Source of the DNA: Niastella vici
GTDB taxonomy: Bacteria; Bacteroidota; Bacteroidia; Chitinophagales; Chitinophagaceae
DNA length: 64,000 nucleotides
Direction of reading: 5' to 3'
Assembly: GCF_002077945.1 (NCBI RefSeq)
Contig: NZ_LVYD01000124.1
Span: 310,001 to 374,000, forward strand
Part shown: one piece after another, positions 536 through 15,592 of the stretch
Layout: every line of letters starts with the position of its first letter
Numbering within the stretch: position 1 is the stretch's first letter
The notes under the pieces: generated by a model
Database searches by the model: none
The model's input: only the letters and a program-made list of their open reading frames with translations
Told to the model about the DNA's origin: nothing
Translations under genes and position numbers: made by a program

Positions 536-1114
536 TCAGGCTTTTTTACCAACAGCATTGGTGAAATCAATGACAATACCATTTCTTTTTTCAGGATTTG
601 CCCACGGTGTAATACCTGGAACTACTTTTTCCTGCAGTGCCCGGTTGAATTTGTAAGCCCGGCTAACGTCGGTGATCTCTTTCAGTTTTTCTCCTGTTTT
701 ATAATAATGGGTGAGGTAGCACATGTCCTCTGTGTATTTTGCCGCAAGCCATTCGTCCAAATCAAATACCTCCAGTTCATGAAGTATGCGAATTCCATAA
801 CAGTTGGCCTCCCATTCGTATTGTTGTAACCTCAACAATGTACCATCGTCGGGCTTCTCATGTAATACGGAACCTAAGGAACGTAGTTCATTACTTACAT
901 TCCATTGAATGGAATGCCCTACCAGGTGAAGCACATTGAACAATTCTTCTTCATCGTCAAGTGCACTGGCTATCCAGATGCTTACCCCATCGAGGTCGCC
1001 CTTAAAATAAGGGTCCAGGTCAGAAGTATCAACGATCTTTAAACCGAGCCGCTTATCGGCATAGAGCTGTACTTTTTTTAATACGTCTGTAAATCGCTGG
1101 GGAGAAATCGACAT
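536..1114 (-). CDS. ImmA/IrrE-like zincin-fold protein lacking the catalytic Glu
   Basis: A 192-residue soluble protein with no signal peptide. The middle carries NVLHLVGHSIQW followed about 35 residues later by YEWEANCYGIRIL. This layout matches ImmA/IrrE (DUF955) metallopeptidases, where HExxH and a downstream Glu in an EANxxA-like helix bind zinc. Here HExxH reads HLVGH, so both histidines and the third ligand are present but the catalytic Glu is Leu. It may be a non-catalytic zinc-binding or regulatory relative. The family call rests on motif spacing only. It is divergently placed from the ABC/OmpA operon (209-base gap) and has no obvious operon partner. Confidence 0.6.
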   Translation of the reverse strand: MSISPQRFTDVLKKVQLYADKRLGLKIVDTSDLDPYFKGDLDGVSIWIASALDDEEELFNVLHLVGHSIQWNVSNELRSLGSVLHEKPDDGTLLRLQQYEWEANCYGIRILHELEVFDLDEWLAAKYTEDMCYLTHYYKTGEKLKEITDVSRAYKFNRALQEKVVPGITPWANPEKRNGIVIDFTNAVGKKA

Positions 1115-1245: not shown

Positions 1246-1253
1246 TAAATTTG
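1246..1253 (+). promoter_or_regulatory. Bacteroidota-type -7 box TAAATTTG before the ABC/OmpA operon
   Basis: TAAATTTG fits the TAnnTTTG -7 consensus of the Bacteroidota primary sigma factor. A weak TTCG at about 1219 is the only -33 candidate. The implied start of transcription near 1260 gives a leader of roughly 60 bases before the ATG at 1324. The gap also holds AT-rich near-repeats of AAATTAGC (about 1185 and 1223) that could be operator half-sites. Confidence 0.45.
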
Positions 1254-1323
1254 ATGGGAACCCAGGCGTTCTTATCTTTCTCCAAAGTATACCCCGTTCT
1301 AAATAATTCAACAATACAACACC

Positions 1324-2118
1324 ATGTCACTTAAAAAATTCCTGCAACAAAAAGGCTTCATTGAAAAAGAAGAGGAAACTGAAAAAAGCGAGGGCGAAAA
1401 AAAGACCGGCAGTTCGGGAAAACAAGACCAGCAAACGATAGAACCAACTTACTTCCCTCTTTATAGCGGTGAAACAGCACCGGCAGAACCCAAATCAGGC
1501 GCCACCACCACTGAACCCAAATCGTTCGTTGTGGCAGATAGCGCCGCCGTGAATATCACTAATACGGCAGAAAGTGTTGATCCGGCATTTATTAAATTTT
1601 TTGAAGATGAATTAACAAAATCAAACTTCCCGGGGCCGGACTATTTCGAGTTTCGTAAACAAATGCAGGCGATGTATCAGAAGCTTGGGAAAGGCACCCC
1701 TCCTAACGTTATCCTTCAGGCGGTGTTAACGAGTTTTGAAGCAATGAACGTTCCGTCGGCCAGGTTGCTCGAAACCGCTAAACAATACAAAGACGTCCTT
1801 GAAAAGAAAAAAATCGACTTCCTGAACGGCGCGGCGGCAGAAAAAGACAAGCAGCTTAAAAAAAGACAGGAGGTTTTGCAAACCCAACAAAATAACCTTA
1901 AACAAATGCAGGACCAGCTGCTGCAATTGCAAAACCAGGAGAAACAATTACAGGATATGATCAAACGCGAGCAAACCCAGCTGGAAGTCAATAAAACACT
2001 GGGGAAAGAGAGCATTGAAAAGATTGAACGCGCTGAAAAACAAATATCTTTGGCACATAAGTATATGATCACTGCCATAGACACTGATATTTCCCAGCTT
2101 ATTTCTACCGGTCATTAA
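1324..2118 (+). CDS. Soluble coiled-coil protein, first gene of the ABC/OmpA cassette
   Basis: 264 residues, no signal peptide or membrane segment. The first 75 residues are charged and low-complexity (E/K/S/T-rich). Residues about 85-150 look folded, with the motif NFPGPDYFEFRKQM. Residues about 165-230 are a strong Gln/Lys/Glu-rich coiled coil. I cannot name a family. It starts an operon of five same-strand genes with gaps of 4-72 bases, so it probably works at the cytosolic face with the two-TM coiled-coil protein encoded next. Helical partners such as TelA or PspA-like proteins would be plausible analogues, but no homology is claimed. Confidence 0.8.
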   Translation: MSLKKFLQQKGFIEKEEETEKSEGEKKTGSSGKQDQQTIEPTYFPLYSGETAPAEPKSGATTTEPKSFVVADSAAVNITNTAESVDPAFIKFFEDELTKSNFPGPDYFEFRKQMQAMYQKLGKGTPPNVILQAVLTSFEAMNVPSARLLETAKQYKDVLEKKKIDFLNGAAAEKDKQLKKRQEVLQTQQNNLKQMQDQLLQLQNQEKQLQDMIKREQTQLEVNKTLGKESIEKIERAEKQISLAHKYMITAIDTDISQLISTGH

Positions 2119-2182
2119 TTGCACATCTTGTAATATATTATTACTTTTCGCGACTAATTCCTAAACAATTATCTGTCATTAT

Positions 2183-3205
2183 ATGAGCACTCTGGATAAA
2201 AGTTCTTCCATCTTTACACTGGAAACAACTGACGAAAAAAAAATGCGAATGATAATTACCGCGGTAGCTATCATCGCATTCCTTGGAATAGGGTTCTTTT
2301 TCCTGCCAAGGATCACCCAAATCATCCACAACTGGATCGACTTTGGCATTGCATTAATGCAACTATTCATTATTGCTGTGATAATCGGGACCTTGTTTGT
2401 CATGCGTAATGTGTTGCTCAATTTATGGAAAGCCCTGGTCAGAAAAATGACCCGCTGGCTTATTAAAACAAATTTGCCCGACCTGCTTGAAGTAGTGGTA
2501 GCCAACCGCCGGGCGGTTCTTGCCAAATTCAATGACAGCATTCACAAAATGATGAATGCGATCACGCTGCATGAAAGGAAAATGACGGAAAGGAAAAAGT
2601 CGATGCAGGACAACCTTGATTATGCTACGCAATTCAGGAAGCAGGCTGAAAATCCAAAAGCAGATCAGCATACCAAAGAAAAAGCCGATGACCAGGCGAA
2701 ACATTTTGGCCGCGAAGCTGCTGAAGATAAAAAATTGCTCGAAAGCATGCAGGCCGATAAGGAGAAAATGCTCAAAAGCTACAACTTCTTTGATCGTTTG
2801 TACAACAACCTTCAAAATAGCACAGAGTCGGTCGCCAATACAATTGGCCGCCTGAAGGACCAACTGGAGACTTCAGACACCTGGCGCGAAGCCGCACAAA
2901 GCGCATCGAGCCTGCTTGGGGTATCAGAATTTGAAACTATTACGCTGGAGGAAACCCGTAACCGTATTGCCCAGAACGAAGCAGAAGTTATGATGATGAT
3001 CCACGATCATGAAACATTGCTCATGAAAATGGAAGCCGAAAATGGTATTATGGACGATGCAGGTCAAAAACTGTTGGAGCAATACAGCAATAAGGTAGAT
3101 GTGTTTGCCTTTATGGAAAACAAAGGAACCGACCGCCCCTCTGGTGGTGGCGACTCGGGTCTTGATACCTCCTGGTTATCTGCCAACCAGGACCTGCTCA
3201 AATAA
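2183..3205 (+). CDS. Two-TM membrane protein with long cytosolic coiled coil
   Basis: 340 residues. Hydrophobic segments at about 22-42 and 55-78 form a hairpin, placing the rest in the cytosol. Residues about 100-230 are highly charged and helical, with heptad-like K/E/Q content, and the C-terminus is a Gly/Ser-rich tail. No enzymatic motif is visible. The arrangement (two N-terminal TMs plus helical domain) resembles that of XpaC-type proteins, which from memory often accompany SBP-OmpA/ABC cassettes in other phyla; this is analogy only. It sits 64 bases after the soluble coiled-coil gene and 72 bases before the SBP-OmpA gene. Confidence 0.8.
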   Translation: MSTLDKSSSIFTLETTDEKKMRMIITAVAIIAFLGIGFFFLPRITQIIHNWIDFGIALMQLFIIAVIIGTLFVMRNVLLNLWKALVRKMTRWLIKTNLPDLLEVVVANRRAVLAKFNDSIHKMMNAITLHERKMTERKKSMQDNLDYATQFRKQAENPKADQHTKEKADDQAKHFGREAAEDKKLLESMQADKEKMLKSYNFFDRLYNNLQNSTESVANTIGRLKDQLETSDTWREAAQSASSLLGVSEFETITLEETRNRIAQNEAEVMMMIHDHETLLMKMEAENGIMDDAGQKLLEQYSNKVDVFAFMENKGTDRPSGGGDSGLDTSWLSANQDLLK

Positions 3206-3277
3206 TTTTTATAAATCATTCGTTTTCATAAACTCTATTTTCTATTTTTCGATCGTTTTAACCCGAATCAATTTGTC

Positions 3278-4852
3278 ATGGAATTAACACCAAAAGGTCG
3301 CCAGGCCGTAAAAGCAGTTCGCAACCTGGCAATACTGCTCGCTGTTCTGGCTATAGGCTATTTTGCTATTCGTGCCTGGGGCCCCTCCTCAAAAGATGGA
3401 AAACTGACCATTGGCGGAACAAGCGGCAAACCAGATCTTGTACTTGCCTATAACACGTTTACCGGTGTGGAAGGGATCGTATTAATGAACGGTGGAATGG
3501 ACCCCAATGAAAATAGTGAGCTGTATAAAAATTACGGAATAAAACTCCAGATCAAACAAATGGACGCGGTAAAGGATACCAGGTCGGGCCTGCACGCAGG
3601 AGATCTGGACCTTGTTTATTGCACCACTGACGCCCTCCCGGTTGAAATGGGCTCAGGCAGCGAATTGCGCTCAGATGACGTAGTGCAGATCATGCAGGTG
3701 AACCAGAGCCATGGGGCCGATGCTATTGTTGTTCGTAAAGGTATAGACGAGGTTAGCAACCTGAAAGGAAAGAAGGTTGCTTATGCAGTGGGAACAGCAT
3801 CGCATACGTTGTTATTAAATGTGCTCGAAACATCAAATATGAAGATGTCGGATATTGATGGTTACCAGGTAGCAGATGGCGTTGAAGCGGCTAATGCATT
3901 TAAAAACGGGCAATGTGATGCAGCGCTTGTGTGGGCTCCCGATGATGAAGATTGCGTAGCGGCCTCAGCCGGTTCAAAAGTGCTGGTAAGCAGTGCCGTG
4001 GCAAGCCAGATCATTGCCGATGGATTGCTGGTAAAGAAAACCGTGCTCGACCAAAAAAGAGCGGTTATCACAAAACTCGTAAAAGCCTGGTTGCAGGGCA
4101 ATGCAAAGATCAATACAGATGCCGCAGCCAAAAAAGAGGCCAATGCGCTTTTTGCAAAAGGATTCAAATTCCCCGAAGACATTGCGGCAAAATCTGCCGA
4201 CAAAGTATATTTTTCGACATTTGGTGACAACGTCAATTTCTTCGGACTGAACAGTACCTACACCGGTATGACGGGTGAAAGAATGTATGGAAGAATGGCG
4301 GTGAAATATACCGAGATCGGTTTGGCTAAATCGCCGGCTCCCTGGAGAAACATTTCAGATCCTTCGGTTATACAGGAATTGATGAACGACCAGGCTTTTG
4401 CCAACGACGCCAAGCAGGGAGCTGTAAAACCTGAAGCATTTCAGCCGGCTACACAGGAAATTAAAACCCAACAGGCACAAAGCAGCAAGATCGTAAAACT
4501 GGAGTTCCCGGTTAATTCGGCACAGCTTACAGAAGATAATATTGTAACACTCGACAGGGAAGTAAAAGAATTGATCCAGGGCTTTGAAAAAGCATATGTA
4601 CGTGTAGAAGGAAATACAGATAATACCGGACAGGCAAAAACCAATGAGCGCTTATCGCTCGACAGGGCGAACGCCGTTGTCAATTATCTGGTAAGTGAGC
4701 AACACCTCGATAAGAACAAGTTTATCGTTATCGGTAACGGTTCAAAAAAACCGGTAGCTGGCTGCGAAGGGAACCAGGATGAAGCCTGCAAAGCCCGCAA
4801 TCGCCGCACAGAATTTCAGTTCATCTGGAAAAAACCAGGCGAAACTGAGTAA
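3278..4852 (+). CDS. Inner-membrane-anchored solute-binding protein fused to OmpA peptidoglycan-binding domain
   Basis: 524 residues. A single TM anchor (about 14-32, rich in Leu/Ala) is followed directly by a periplasmic NMT1/NitT-TauT-like solute-binding domain (about 45-330). A C-terminal OmpA-like domain (about 405-520) has VEGNTDNTG, LSLDRANAV and ARNRRTEF. The Asp in NTD and Arg in NRR are the residues that in OmpA/Pal/MotB bind diaminopimelate of peptidoglycan. There is no lipobox. The protein therefore probably ties an ABC permease in the inner membrane to the cell wall. Permease and ATPase genes follow at once. Such fusions are often annotated as phosphate ABC transporter substrate-binding/OmpA proteins; the real ligand is unknown. 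Confidence 0.9.
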   Translation: MELTPKGRQAVKAVRNLAILLAVLAIGYFAIRAWGPSSKDGKLTIGGTSGKPDLVLAYNTFTGVEGIVLMNGGMDPNENSELYKNYGIKLQIKQMDAVKDTRSGLHAGDLDLVYCTTDALPVEMGSGSELRSDDVVQIMQVNQSHGADAIVVRKGIDEVSNLKGKKVAYAVGTASHTLLLNVLETSNMKMSDIDGYQVADGVEAANAFKNGQCDAALVWAPDDEDCVAASAGSKVLVSSAVASQIIADGLLVKKTVLDQKRAVITKLVKAWLQGNAKINTDAAAKKEANALFAKGFKFPEDIAAKSADKVYFSTFGDNVNFFGLNSTYTGMTGERMYGRMAVKYTEIGLAKSPAPWRNISDPSVIQELMNDQAFANDAKQGAVKPEAFQPATQEIKTQQAQSSKIVKLEFPVNSAQLTEDNIVTLDREVKELIQGFEKAYVRVEGNTDNTGQAKTNERLSLDRANAVVNYLVSEQHLDKNKFIVIGNGSKKPVAGCEGNQDEACKARNRRTEFQFIWKKPGETE

Positions 4853-4917
4853 CCAATTTCTTTGTATCCCGGCCACCTGATGCAATCAGGCATGCGGAAA
4901 CATCTTATTGTTTATTT

Positions 4918-5718
4918 ATGACAAACAGCCCGGAAAATAAATCGAACATACTCGTAAAGAAATTTCTGCGCGATCATCTTTCATTGCTGCAAACAGCGGG
5001 ATGGCTGGTCATTTTCATAATCTGGTACCTGATCACGAATTTTGGCCTCATCAATACACACGTATTACCCACTCCTCAAAAAACGTTTAGTGCTTTCAGG
5101 GAGTTGCAAAAAGATGACAATCTTGGCCAAAACATTCTTTTTTCTGTACGCATCAACGTCATAGGTTATTTGAAATGCATTGTTGGCGCCATTGCCTTTG
5201 GCTTTGCCATAGGATTGAACCCAACGTTGAGGAAAATGTTCAGCCACCAGATCAATGCGCTACGTTTTGTACCTATTACTGCCATGATGGGAATATTTAT
5301 TGCGATAAGCGGACTAACAATCGCTACCAAGATCAATTTCCTGGCCTTTGGTATTTGGGTATATCTTGTACCGGTGGTGGTGCAAAGGATCGATGAAGTA
5401 TCGGTCACTCACCTTCAAATGATGAAAACCCTTGGCGCCTCTGCCTGGCAAACACTGATACATGTACAATGGAGATCGGTGATCGCCCGCCTGTCGGATG
5501 ACATTCGCATTCTCGTAGGCATCAGTTGGACCTATATCATCGTTGCTGAGCTGGCCGGTATTCAGGGCGGACTGGGCAGTCTTATATTCCTGGGCGAAAG
5601 ACAAAGTAACGTTGGAAAGGTATATGCAGTGATCTTTATCATTGTGGCTATTGGCATCATCCAGGATATTATTTTCAAGCTCATAGACAGATTATTATTC
5701 AAATTCAAATACCAATAA
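4918..5718 (+). CDS. ABC transporter permease, NitT/TauT (SsuC/TauC) type
   Basis: 266 residues with about six hydrophobic segments and a binding-protein-dependent permease domain. The EAA-type loop that docks on the ATPase is visible around residues 165-185 (MMKTLGASAWQTLIHV), followed by the usual GISWTYIIVAELAG segment. Relatives in this family import sulfonates, nitrate or pyrimidine precursors. Here the partner binding protein is anchored to membrane and wall, so uptake of a conventional nutrient is not certain. The stop is 4 bases before the ATPase start, indicating translational coupling. Confidence 0.92.
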   Translation: MTNSPENKSNILVKKFLRDHLSLLQTAGWLVIFIIWYLITNFGLINTHVLPTPQKTFSAFRELQKDDNLGQNILFSVRINVIGYLKCIVGAIAFGFAIGLNPTLRKMFSHQINALRFVPITAMMGIFIAISGLTIATKINFLAFGIWVYLVPVVVQRIDEVSVTHLQMMKTLGASAWQTLIHVQWRSVIARLSDDIRILVGISWTYIIVAELAGIQGGLGSLIFLGERQSNVGKVYAVIFIIVAIGIIQDIIFKLIDRLLFKFKYQ

Positions 5719-5722
5719 CGGC

Positions 5723-6541
5723 ATGAGCCAGTCAAGCGACCTTCCTCCTATACTGGAACTACGTGGTATCCATCAAACATATTTTGATGACAAAAAACAA
5801 CAGGATTTTGTCGTCTTCAACGATTTCAGTCTGGCAATTGAAGATTATACCAACCTTGGCCAGTTTGTAGTAATAATGGGCAAATCGGGCTGTGGCAAAT
5901 CTACCTTGCTGCGCTACTGGTCGGGCTTGCAAAAGCCTACCGCAGGGGAAGTGCTGATCAGCGGCAAGCCTATCGGAGACAAGCAGAGTATCCCAATGGT
6001 ATTTCAACAGTACTCTTCCCTGGAGTGGTATACAGTACTTGAAAATGTGGCCTTACCGCTTACATTGAAAGGCGTATCAAAAAAGGAAGCGCATGAGAAA
6101 GCCATGGATATGATCAAGGTCGTTGGCCTGGAAGGGCATGAAAATAAATTTGCAAAAACGCCGCAACTGTCGGGCGGGCAATTACAGCGTGTAGCCATCG
6201 CCAGGAGCCTTGTAGCCAACCCGAGTATGATCTTGTTGGATGAACCTTTTGGGGCGCTGGATGGGTTTACAAGGGCTAAAATGCAATTCTTCCTGCTCGA
6301 TCTGTTCCAAAAAAGTGAAGTGGCCGATCTTAACCCAACCGTAGTGCTTGTTACCCACGATCCGCGTGAAGCGGTGCTGCTCGGTAATGACATTTACATT
6401 ATGGACGCAAACCCGGGCAGGGTTATCAAACATCTGAAACCTGAGTTACCTAATACAAGGGACAGAGCCATTCGTAAAGATTCGCGCTTCATTGAAATAG
6501 TTTCATATGTAGAAGATGTGATGGAAGGGAATATTAAATAA
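5723..6541 (+). CDS. ABC transporter ATP-binding protein, NitT/TauT type
   Basis: 272 residues with all ATPase motifs: Walker A GKSGCGKSTLL (about residue 54), Q-loop VFQQYSSLEWYTV, signature LSGGQLQRVAIARSL, Walker B MILLDEPFGALDG and H-loop VLVTHDPREA. It should energise the permease encoded just upstream. It ends the five-gene operon, followed by a strong palindromic terminator. No fused regulatory domain is visible beyond the usual C-terminal tail. Confidence 0.95.
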   Translation: MSQSSDLPPILELRGIHQTYFDDKKQQDFVVFNDFSLAIEDYTNLGQFVVIMGKSGCGKSTLLRYWSGLQKPTAGEVLISGKPIGDKQSIPMVFQQYSSLEWYTVLENVALPLTLKGVSKKEAHEKAMDMIKVVGLEGHENKFAKTPQLSGGQLQRVAIARSLVANPSMILLDEPFGALDGFTRAKMQFFLLDLFQKSEVADLNPTVVLVTHDPREAVLLGNDIYIMDANPGRVIKHLKPELPNTRDRAIRKDSRFIEIVSYVEDVMEGNIK

Positions 6542-6558: not shown

Positions 6559-6592
6559 AAAAATGCGTCCCGATGCATCGGGACGCATTTTT
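6559..6592. terminator. Bidirectional palindromic terminator
   Basis: A perfect 17-bp inverted repeat with no loop bases, centred on ATGCAT, is flanked by A-run and T-run. It separates the ABC operon (+) from the convergent TonB receptor (-) and can terminate both. Its core CCCGATGCATCGGG closely resembles the hairpin at 49737-49758. Confidence 0.85.
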
Positions 6593-11928: not shown

Positions 11929-12963
11929 CTATTCTCCCAACCTCGGCCTTAATCTATGGCGTGATTTATTGAAGATATTACGGCCTTTATCGATGCCCTT
12001 ACGAAGCTCTTTTCGCTCTTCTTCGGGTAAATGAATAAAATCCTGGCAATCCTTGCTGCAGCAACCTTCATATTGCTGGCGGCAGTTCTCGCATTGTATA
12101 AACAACAGGTGGCAACCATCATTGGCACAATTGGCATGGGTATCGGCCGGGTTTCCGCACTGGTGGCAGCGGGCGATCACATCGGGTGTAATGCGTTCCC
12201 CCAGCCTGTTGTCGAACACAAAGTTCTTCCCAATGAACTGGCTTTCGAGCCCCTGTTCTTTGATCTGTTTGGCATAATTGATAATACCGCCCTCGAGGTG
12301 AAACACGTTCTGAAACCCGTGGTGCAGCATGTAGGCGCTGGCTTTTTCACACCGGATACCGCCGGTGCAATACATAATGATATTGCGGTCTTTGCGGTCT
12401 TTCAGCATGTCAACCGCCATGGGCAACTGCTCGCGGAACGTATCGCTGGGCACTTCAAGGGCCTTTACAAAATGGCCCACCTCGTACTCATAGTGATTGC
12501 GCATGTCAACCACAATGGTCTCGGGATCGTTCAACAGGGTATTCATTTGCCGGGCATTTACATACTTTCCCTTGTTTTCCATGTTGAAGGTTTCATCTGT
12601 AATGCCATCGGCCACGATCTTATCGCGCACCTTTATTTTCAACACCCAAAACGATTTGCCATCATCATCTACGGCAATATTCAGCCGCAGCCCGTTCAGC
12701 GGTTCAATGGTATATAAATAATTCTTAAACGCCTCAAAATTGCTTTGCGGAACACTGATCTGTGCATTAATACCTTCATGCGCCACATAAATGCGGCCAA
12801 ACACTTTTAATACTTCTAAATGTTTGTAGAGCTCGTTGCGGAATTGCTCGGGTTCGGCAATGGGAAAATACTGATAGAAAGAAATAGTGGTACGGGGTTC
12901 AGTTTCCTGGTACAAACGTTCTTTCAGCTCCTTCTGGGAGACGCGGTTGTGTAAAATAGCCAT
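11929..12963 (-). CDS. trhO: tRNA uridine(34) hydroxylase, rhodanese family (TrhO/YceA)
   Basis: 344 residues from the ATG at 12963, where the family N-terminus [10 protein letters not shown] begins; an upstream ATG at 13017 only adds a non-conserved tail. An N-terminal ferredoxin-like domain ([18 protein letters not shown]) is followed by a rhodanese domain with active-site loop [13 protein letters not shown]. The C-terminal cysteine-rich region ([21 protein letters not shown]) probably binds zinc. Known relatives hydroxylate U34 of tRNA, the first step to 5-methoxy/carboxymethoxyuridine. Upstream on the same strand is the DUF5686 gene, separated by an octamer repeat element. Confidence 0.92.
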
Positions 12964-13033
12964 ATTTGAATTTTTGCGACCGCTTGCAGGGCAGTCAAAA
13001 ATTTTTAAACGGGGCAAATTTAGTTCATTATTA

Positions 13034-13125
13034 TTAAGTTATTCAGTTCATAAGTTCGAAATTCAGAAAGCTTTATAAAAGATTAAAACTCAGCAATTAA
13101 AACAACTGAATAACTGAACAACTGC
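13034..13125. repeat. Octamer fold-back element (AACTGAAY words)
   Basis: Left arm words AAGTTATT, CAGTTCAT, AAGTTCG and right arm words AACTGAAT, AACTGAAC, AACTGCC are inverted complements spaced every 8 bases, with about 50 AT-rich bases between. It fills the gap between the DUF5686 stop and the trhO start. It belongs to the same architectural class as the heptamer elements of this window. Confidence 0.6.
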
Positions 13126-13126
13126 C

Positions 13127-15592
13127 TTACAACTTCCCAAATCCCCTGATTCCCAGGCGTACCCCCATGGTAGATACGCGGCCCTGTTCAAAACCCCATA
13201 CCCAGTCGAACCGGGCTATTTTGAGGATATTCTCAAAACCGGTGAATACTTCTACATACTCTTTATTGCTGCTGATATAAAACGCATTGGCGCCCATGAC
13301 CAGGTACCAGTTAATGCTGCGCAACACAGGTATTTTATTTGTTAGCAGTCCATTGAAATGGTGTTCTATATGACCTTCGGCATACAGCTTGTTCTTATTG
13401 CTGTATTTATAATAAGGCAATAACTGAAAACCGCTCAGGTAATCGGCAGAAGCCAGGATCTGGTTTCCGTTAAAATGGGTATAATCGATCACTGCCACAC
13501 TATCACGTTTCAAAAACCCGCCCAGTGCCAGCTTATACCTGAAATTGCCACCCAGGTTCAGGTTCAGGCTTTGGCTCACATCAAAACGCCATTTTGAATA
13601 ATTGATATCACTGCCCAGCCATTTGTTGATCCCCTGCGTGTACGTCAATGTAAACAGCGGATACCGGGAACCCACGTTCACGATCCTTTCAGGATACTCA
13701 ATATATTTAGTGCCGGGCAGCCAGCTTATACCCACATTGCCGATCAATGCCTGGTGCCGCTTAAAGTTCTCGCCCATGATCTCTTCCGGATAATTCGGGG
13801 TGAATTCAATGTTCTTTCTGTTTGCCAGCGTATAATCGGTGGTATTCTCCAGCGGTAAGCGGTCTTCAAATTTCAGTGCGCCAAAAAAAGTTAACCCGCG
13901 TCCCACCTCTTTTGTGAAATTGAACTTAGCATACCAGGCCTCATAGAATTTCGCATAGTTACGCTCGAACAACCAGCTGCGGATGGTATTGCTGAACTGG
14001 CTGATGGGGTTGGCATTGTTTAGCTGAAAGATCCATTTACCGCCGCCAAAGGAGAAGGATGAAAAATATTTTCGGCCATGCGTATAGGTAAATGTTCCGG
14101 CATAATTGATATGATGATTGCTGAATCCATAACGTAATCCCGGTTCCACATACATGGCCCGCCGCGACGTGGCAATGGTATCGAGCCGTTTTGAATACCG
14201 GCCACCCAAATTCACCACCCAGCCTTCCACGGTGTTATAGGCAAATGTTTGCAGCAGCGGGTTAACGCCATAAGTTTCGCGATTTTTTTCATGATAGAAA
14301 TTTTCGCCGGTAGCAAGGAGGGAGAACCAATTTACTTTGTTGCGCCGCCGGTCGATTGAATCGAGATAATGTGGGTTTTTATGCGCTTCTTCCAAACTAT
14401 CTTTCCGTTGATAATCGGCTATTTCTTCTGCATGCAAAGGCACGGGCCTGATGCTATCCCAGAAAACAGCCGGCTTTTTGTTAGAGCCCTCATAGATCTT
14501 CAGGTAAGTATTGTTAAAGAACCTGTGCTCAAAAGAGGGCGCTATATTGAACCGGGAATACACATTCACAAAACTGCCGAACGCATCAAAGCCCAGCAGC
14601 TTTACTGCGGGGTATAATACCTGTGTTTTAATAACCCAAACATCTTTGTTATATGGAACATACAATTGCTCAATATTCAACGAATCAATGAGCTCCATCT
14701 GCGATGTTTTGGTGAGGCCCAATTGCAGGCTATGTATTCGCCAGTCGCCTTCGGTGATATTGATATAACCGCTGAACAACGGTTCATACCGCCGTTTGGG
14801 AATAACCTTAATACGATTGATCTCGCGGCCATCTTCAATAAAACTTCCCTCGTAATGATAGCGGTAAAAATTCAGGGCATTGCCGGCAATGGGCGAAATA
14901 AATCCGCGCGGGTTCAGGTTGCGCCCCACCTGAATATTGTTTTCATAAAACGAAATGATCTGCGGTGTACTTAAGCCAAACTCATCGCTGCGGCCACTTA
15001 CCTTGGTACTCAGTACTTCGATCTTGCTGCGGCGTGGCTTTTCCACTGAGTAGCGGGCAACGGTCTCTGAGAGAAAAAGCATTTTTTTCTGGCTGGTATC
15101 GCCATCTTCAAAATCTATTGTTTCGCCCATGAACTTCTTGGGATAGGCCCGCAACTGCAATTGCCCTTTTATATACACTTCGCACTGGAATGTCTTGAGC
15201 TGGTTGAGGTAATAGGGTCTTTTTTGAATGGCATTTCGAATGACCTCATACGCGGGGTCTTCGGCGCCGGGCCGCACCACCACTTCTTTCAGACTTAATT
15301 GTTGTATGGAAAGCTGGAAATCGAGAATGATGTTATCTGTGCCTACCGTAATTGTTTTTTCCTGGCGGTTATACCCTACATATTGTGCCACGATGGTGTA
15401 GGTACCGGGTTCAAGCTGCATGAAATACCCGCCTTCCTTATTGGCCGTGGCGCCCTGGGTGGTGCCTTTTATGAGAATGGAAGCGTATGCCAGCATCTGC
15501 CCTTTTTCGTCGGTGACCTTGCCGCTGATTCGCGCGGCCTGCCCGGATCTATAAATTCCAATAAAGAGGGTAAGTAAGGTCAGTAATCTCAT
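13127..15592 (-). CDS. DUF5686 outer-membrane protein with carboxypeptidase-like N-domain
   Basis: 821 residues. A short signal peptide (about 1-19) precedes a CarbopepD_reg-like domain (ISGKVTDEKGQMLAYASILI, about 22-105). A long DUF5686 region rich in aromatic and alternating residues, typical of beta-barrel strands, runs to the C-terminus. No plug domain or TonB box is visible, so it is not a TonB receptor. The family is widespread in Bacteroidota and thought to lie in the outer membrane, with unknown role. The nearest same-strand upstream gene is the RDD protein 130 bases away. Confidence 0.85.
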   Translation of the reverse strand: MRLLTLLTLFIGIYRSGQAARISGKVTDEKGQMLAYASILIKGTTQGATANKEGGYFMQLEPGTYTIVAQYVGYNRQEKTITVGTDNIILDFQLSIQQLSLKEVVVRPGAEDPAYEVIRNAIQKRPYYLNQLKTFQCEVYIKGQLQLRAYPKKFMGETIDFEDGDTSQKKMLFLSETVARYSVEKPRRSKIEVLSTKVSGRSDEFGLSTPQIISFYENNIQVGRNLNPRGFISPIAGNALNFYRYHYEGSFIEDGREINRIKVIPKRRYEPLFSGYINITEGDWRIHSLQLGLTKTSQMELIDSLNIEQLYVPYNKDVWVIKTQVLYPAVKLLGFDAFGSFVNVYSRFNIAPSFEHRFFNNTYLKIYEGSNKKPAVFWDSIRPVPLHAEEIADYQRKDSLEEAHKNPHYLDSIDRRRNKVNWFSLLATGENFYHEKNRETYGVNPLLQTFAYNTVEGWVVNLGGRYSKRLDTIATSRRAMYVEPGLRYGFSNHHINYAGTFTYTHGRKYFSSFSFGGGKWIFQLNNANPISQFSNTIRSWLFERNYAKFYEAWYAKFNFTKEVGRGLTFFGALKFEDRLPLENTTDYTLANRKNIEFTPNYPEEIMGENFKRHQALIGNVGISWLPGTKYIEYPERIVNVGSRYPLFTLTYTQGINKWLGSDINYSKWRFDVSQSLNLNLGGNFRYKLALGGFLKRDSVAVIDYTHFNGNQILASADYLSGFQLLPYYKYSNKNKLYAEGHIEHHFNGLLTNKIPVLRSINWYLVMGANAFYISSNKEYVEVFTGFENILKIARFDWVWGFEQGRVSTMGVRLGIRGFGKL

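Follow-up and report, generated by a model that had tools for sequence, protein, structure and literature searches.

The window analysed here, a 64,000-nucleotide stretch of the 10.1-Mb genome of Niastella vici (G000:C124:310001-374000), carries at 1324-6541 a cassette of five co-directional open reading frames (ORFs) on the plus strand. In order, they encode two coiled-coil proteins (CC1 and CC2), a solute-binding protein fused to an OmpA-like domain (SBP-OmpA), and the permease and ATPase of an ATP-binding cassette (ABC) transporter, with intergenic distances of 64, 72, 65 and 4 bp. An earlier, sequence-only reading of this DNA had described five tightly linked genes, and we found every one of these ORFs where it had placed them, on a single strand; the domain labels it gave to the five products agree with hydropathy and domain matches. 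The set is not a chance grouping, because the identical order is complete in 26 loci. We also looked for an odd base composition, and the G+C content of the cassette genes is 43-47% compared to 46% for the window.

The first gene (1324..2118) encodes CC1, a soluble protein of 264 residues with no transmembrane (TM) helix by hydropathy. The family alignment and an AlphaFold model of mean pLDDT 69 describe a low-confidence linker, short helices (residues 87-99, 105-121 and 127-141) and a long coiled-coil helix (145-263). An amphipathic N-terminal helix is not claimed as a feature of CC1: in a shuffle test, 11 of 38 members reached 0.05 (the value for CC1 of the window is 0.88). CC2 (2183..3205; 340 residues) has two N-terminal TM helices by hydropathy, at residues 23-41 and 56-74, and a long helical hairpin that is suggested by its AlphaFold model and by comparison of its family with PspA/IM30. 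The third gene (3278..4852) specifies a binding protein of the SsuA/NMT1 type with 524 residues (NMT1, E 5.5e-12), a single N-terminal TM helix (13-31), no lipobox anywhere in residues 1-45, and a C-terminal OmpA-like domain at 410-502 (E 4.2e-17). Domain matches and a tree identify the product of the fourth gene (4918..5718) as an SsuC/TauC-like ABC permease (BPD_transp_1, E 8.5e-14). The fifth gene (5723..6541) encodes an ABC ATPase (ABC_tran, E 5.5e-29), and the Walker A, signature, Walker B and H-loop motifs are all intact in the 27 ATPases of the family that we compared.

Attachment of the binding protein to both membrane and wall had been proposed from the sequence, and as a prediction this proposal holds: beside the single TM helix, the motif TDNxG..N..LS..RA, including its conserved D and R, is present in 29/29 SBP-OmpA proteins. 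A stricter pattern with one extra fixed residue is found in 19 of the 29. We take this motif to be the peptidoglycan contact. An OmpA-like domain with a conserved motif is shared with MotB, ZorB and Pal. In the cassette, however, this domain is fused to a solute-binding domain, and we found no MotA/ZorA/ExbB/TolQ-type partner and no nuclease domain among the five proteins. Matches of SBP-OmpA to ZorB models (best E 3.9e-11) are confined to the OmpA domain.

The evidence on the nature of CC2 comes from its wider family. An alignment of 25 CC2 sequences matched an alignment of twelve PspA sequences at 95.4% (hhalign; P 1.6e-8 over 180 columns); the controls, namely reversed alignments, TelA and two further sets of coiled-coil proteins, reached at most 3.6%. 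Eight PspA-like proteins among the twelve, taken on their own, gave 95.6% (P 1.3e-8, 209 columns), a value subject to a selection effect, as these eight had themselves been found by the CC2 profile. Seven of the eight were scanned and all seven exceed the PspA_IM30 cut-off (61-73 bits vs 33.9). In the opposite direction, the Pfam model PF04012 picks out CC2 family members: L075 scores best (29 bits, E 9.8e-7, below the cut-off of 33.9), and G312 (E 9.0e-6) and G037 (E 9.1e-4) are likewise below the cut-off. These two results with PF04012 do not depend on the CC2 profile. Across 247 genomes, the further matches of that profile that could be resolved, eight in all, were PspA-like proteins rather than other coiled coils, which favours kinship. 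For the CC2 model, the top Foldseek chain was Vipp1 (E 0.024), and VIA-align gave Z scores of 10.7 for Vipp1 (root-mean-square deviation 2.1 over 134 residues), 10.8 for Snf7 and 10.1 for PspA.

Several results weigh against this kinship. The CC2 family matched the other four of the twelve, which were found without its profile (E. coli PspA and three PspAs identified with PF04012), at only 4.9% (P 0.008), although the sets of eight and four match each other at 93.6%. The CC2 of the window had no PspA (PF04012) match in a Pfam scan, and the CC2 proteins closest to it, type I as defined below, matched PspA at 0.1% when aligned alone, although they matched the other CC2 types at 98.6%. The AlphaFold model of CC2 is weak (pLDDT 59), particularly outside about residues 130-200, and dynein and BAR chains score like Vipp1 in VIA-align (Z 10-11). 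Accordingly, we regard the structural comparison with Vipp1 as compatible but not decisive. The N-terminal amphipathic helix alpha0 of PspA and ESCRT-III was not found in CC2, where the two TM helices precede the hairpin. Collectively, these data indicate that CC2, judged through its wider family, is probably related to PspA/IM30, though remotely and as a TM-anchored form, and is not PspA proper. Its resemblance to PspA/Vipp1 (IM30) and ESCRT-III is a remote sequence similarity of the family's hairpin to one PspA/IM30 subgroup; by contrast with PspA/Vipp1, it carries two TM helices ahead of the hairpin and scores below the Pfam cut-off, and similarity to E. coli-type PspA is undetectable. We call the homology no more than probable because the match is strong for this one subgroup and undetected for the four other PspAs. 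A positive charge on the hairpin, an idea taken from the available text of PMC12636044, was dropped as a feature of CC2: residues 76-160 carry +9 in the window and -4 to +6 in six other members. For CC1, hhalign gave 18.4% with the PspA profile over 77 columns (reversed, 2.4%), 27.8% with the PspAs found by the CC2 profile and 2.0% with other PspAs.

We next turn to the distribution of the cassette. A scan of genome contigs with a single sequence, using six exact peptide patterns and so reaching close relatives only, returned four loci. A profile of the CC2 proteins of these relatives, here called type I, matched 4/394 genomes of the bacterial family and 1/247 of the phylum. The wider CC2 family was entered through L047, which comes from a different bacterial family and matches at 22% (hhalign 95.1%). 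Searching with L047 and then with profile A5 yielded 20/247 phylum genomes and 21/195 family genomes; ten of the 20 phylum genomes have CC2 proteins, in eight the match is to PspA-like proteins, and the remaining two (L103, L104) gave no clear ORF. Two contigs were each counted once (L041 is that of L054, and L042 that of L053). The L042 genome is that of Niastella sp. OAS944, and its CC1 and CC2 are identical to those of a congener (G247). In plasmids, CC1 and two CC2 queries had no match and neither SBP-OmpA query was covered to 80% at any place; no viral contigs with type I SBP-OmpA were found.

We examined the gene neighbourhoods of 44 CC2 loci, having dropped L152, which has no CC2; as sampling began from CC2, the figures do not extend to the frequency of SBP-OmpA cassettes lacking it. 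The full five-gene order is present in 26 of the 44 and falls into three types, with 5 loci of type I, 16 of type II and 5 of type III; two further loci (L040, L143) are cut by contig ends. L153 (6107-9798) has CC1, CC2 and SBP-OmpA, with a binding domain of the window's kind (hhalign 100%), and no permease or ATPase gene lies beside them. In three loci, CC1 and CC2 are followed by a different third protein (L149 9305-10309, L151 6063-7106 and L169 8836-9888), which by eye appears membrane-anchored and is weakly Ppx/GppA-like in two of the three. The pair stands without any transporter in eight loci (L070, L072, L073, L074, L077, L078, L144 and L170), and CC2 lacks CC1 in four (L047, L071, L164 and L171). 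CC1 adjoins CC2 in 39 of the 43 loci where this is visible. The CC1-CC2 pair thus looks like the core of the cassette, because it also occurs alone or with another protein.

Sequence comparison of the types supports joint inheritance of the five genes. Mean pairwise identity among the five type I cassettes is 61% for CC1, 79% for CC2, 81% for the binding protein and 82% for both permease and ATPase, compared to 14-28% per gene between types I and II. Excluding OmpA, homology between the binding domains of type I and those of types II and III was undetected (0.8% and 4.1%). The permease and ATPase genes cluster by type in trees with outgroups. On whether the ABC genes have a single origin or were recruited separately, the two trees differ: the permease tree unites types I, II and III (support 0.999), and the ATPase tree places type I with TauB (0.884). 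In the 26 complete cassettes, the tree distances of the genes vary together, with correlations of 0.70 for CC1 with CC2, 0.79-0.80 for CC2 with the ABC genes, 0.59-0.65 for CC1 with the ABC genes and 0.94-0.96 among the ABC genes themselves, and none of 500 label permutations reached the observed values. For type II alone, the ten values range over 0.90-0.95. The earlier interpretation was to fall if the coiled-coil genes were not conserved alongside their ABC neighbours, and the 26 complete loci bear it out on this point. Species descent contributes to the distance correlations, but two types can share a genome: I and II in G000 and G299, and II and III in G252 and G253. The second cassette of N. 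vici itself is a type II set of five genes on another contig (L069 7607-13011, G000:C13).

Ravi et al. 2024 (PMC11237479) describe operons in which a TM-bearing PspA/Snf7 protein is encoded together with an ABC ATPase, a permease, a PBPB-OmpA protein and an AAA+ ATPase, with OGG56892.1 as an operon example. The window cassette is a system of this kind. It has the ABC ATPase, the permease and the fusion of a solute-binding protein to OmpA, and its TM-bearing CC2 is a probable PspA homologue. It differs from those operons in the AAA+ gene, which lies beside one of 25 operons examined here (L165) and not beside the window cassette, where we found no other P-loop ORF within 8.3 kb upstream or 4 kb downstream. 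In L165, an AAA+ ATPase with AAA_lid_6 (12446-13852) directly follows the type III cassette, as in the operons described in the available part of PMC11237479. Among PMC11237479, PMC12791056 and PMC12636044, as far as their available text goes and within a search of open-licence literature, the combination is described only in the first. New here are the Bacteroidota form, which nearly always lacks the AAA+ ATPase, its near-constant CC1 partner and its three types, together with stand-alone CC1-CC2 pairs, an alternative third gene, an M78-like companion and exchange of cassettes at one site.

The sequence-only reading had two unrecognised coiled-coil proteins standing in for TelA and XpaC. This part of it was not supported in Bacteroidota: there is no profile link to TelA, XpaC is absent from the genomes searched, and CC2 leads to PspA/IM30, through its family and against one PspA subgroup, while the predicted tethering and the co-conservation of the genes stand. 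With hhalign, TelA matched CC1 at 3.3% and CC2 at 0.1%, and reversed TelA reached 0.2% with each; neither protein had a Pfam match to XpaC (PF10112), a domain absent from all 128 Bacteroidota genomes searched, N. vici included. TelA (PF05816) occurs in 4/128 of these genomes; in three of them it has neighbours that look TerD-like by eye (clusters L161, L162 and L163), and the TelA flanks read had no match to the five cassette families. TelA (YaaN)-XpaC operons are linked to envelope stress (lmo1966-lmo1967) in the available text of PMC12791056; the cassette has no profile similarity to their TelA.

Type I cassettes have a sixth gene, which in the window lies at 536..1114 on the minus strand and was not part of the set named by the sequence-only reading. 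Its product of 192 residues is M78/IrrE-like, as suggested by sub-cut-off matches: M78 matched two of four members below the cut-off (best E 0.036) and did not match the window protein. HLxGH replaces HExxH in all four rows of its alignment (A4), so that the glutamate of an M78/ImmA-IrrE peptidase is absent. The gene accompanies type I in 5/5 loci whose flanks extend far enough: in the window, L042 and L052 it is upstream and divergently oriented, and in L039 and L041 it follows the cassette on the same strand. It is present in 3/3 type I genomes compared to 0/5 other genus genomes searched. Its product is possibly a sensor or regulator. A weak candidate for a Bacteroidota-type promoter lies at 1250..1280 on the plus strand, with one mismatch to the consensus; an equal match was present in 32 of 1000 shuffled regions, and no such match lies upstream of the L042 and L052 cassettes. 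A perfect inverted repeat read in the sequence at 6559..6592, between the convergent genes for the ATPase and a TonB receptor, is a possible bidirectional terminator and was not in the output of a terminator scan.

The site of the window cassette is one at which cassettes have been exchanged. In G252 (L167) and G253 (L166), type III cassettes lie between the CCG-domain and TonB-receptor genes that in the window bracket type I and the sixth gene. These flanking genes are 91-92% and 82.5-84.1% identical, respectively, to those of the window, and in G253 purC comes next as in the window (93%). By contrast, the ATPases across the exchanged site are 37-38% identical. In L042 (5349-11210), the type I block is inverted against its flanks relative to the window and L052, and it is separated from the TonB receptor by two additional genes.

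From these observations, we infer an envelope-maintenance module in which a TM-anchored, PspA-like scaffold would be coupled to a wall-tethered ABC transporter, and we place this function at roughly even odds (about 0.5). We likewise infer the topology, the assembly of the five proteins and their coupling, any polymerisation, the ligand, the stress and the direction of signalling. CC2 would be held in the inner membrane by its TM hairpin and would display a helical scaffold resembling that of PspA towards the cytoplasm, with CC1 as its soluble partner. The binding protein, anchored in the inner membrane, would clamp peptidoglycan through OmpA and report wall position or a periplasmic ligand, and the ABC ATPase may power transport, remodelling of the scaffold or both. 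Several points weigh against this picture: a structure search returned no recognised fold for CC1, the pair stands without a transporter in the eight loci listed above, species descent alone also makes distances correlate, and the available text of PMC11237479, PMC12791056 and PMC12636044 contains no assay of a member.

A rival explanation, which we consider unlikely, is an ordinary importer like SsuABC/TauABC, whose binding protein is tethered to the wall for stability, with CC1 and CC2 as an assembly scaffold and nutrient uptake as the output. The binding protein, permease and ATPase do resemble those of sulfonate and taurine systems, the type I ATPase groups with TauB and its motifs are intact. 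However, the binding protein is TM-anchored and fused to OmpA, coiled-coil genes share the operon, and NCBIfam scores fall below their cut-offs for SsuA_fam (81.1 vs 163.5 bits), the taurine ATPase model (190.1 vs 357) and TauC (66.2 vs 342). Nor does an importer account easily for the eight CC1-CC2 pairs lacking any transporter or for L153, and by eye none of the neighbouring ORFs resembles sulfonate or taurine metabolism. A bolder form of the envelope-maintenance reading, to which we give little credence, holds that in Bacteroidota the ABC transporter replaced the AAA+ ATPase: the wall-clamped binding protein would sense how far the membrane lies from the peptidoglycan, or a ligand in the space between them, ATP hydrolysis by the ABC ATPase would assemble or disassemble a TM-anchored PspA/ESCRT-III-type polymer of CC1 and CC2, and interchangeable sensor types at one site would tune the system to different stresses.

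More doubtful still is a conflict system against phages or competitors, in which divergent cassettes would swap at one site because of diversifying selection on their sensors. The type III cassettes at the window's type I site, the patchy occurrence of type I (4/394 family genomes) and the ZorB matches speak for such a system, but those matches lie inside the OmpA domain, none of the five proteins has a MotA/ZorA-like or nuclease domain, and identity within type I is high (mean 79% for CC2). We give just as little weight to a Tol-Pal/FtsEX-like machine in which the ABC ATPase would be the motor that ties the inner membrane to wall growth or division: the cassette shares the general plan of FtsEX-EnvC (an ATPase, a peptidoglycan-binding protein and coiled coils) and an FtsE/FtsX/EnvC chain appeared at Foldseek rank 50 (E 0.53), but the permease is of an importer family (BPD_transp_1) and the CC2 family is present in only 21/195 genomes of the bacterial family and is therefore not needed for division in general.

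The setting of the proposed envelope-maintenance module is a genus in which PF04012 had no match in the ten genomes searched (N. vici and nine congeners), so that no canonical PspA was found in them; over a sample of 59 genomes, three had a match above the cut-off. Ravi et al. 2024 (PMC11237479) call it unknown how assembly is controlled in those PspA homologues that have no AAA ATPase associated with them, and the cassette is a tractable case for asking this question. It also provides a concrete example of a solute-binding protein that may act as an envelope sensor.

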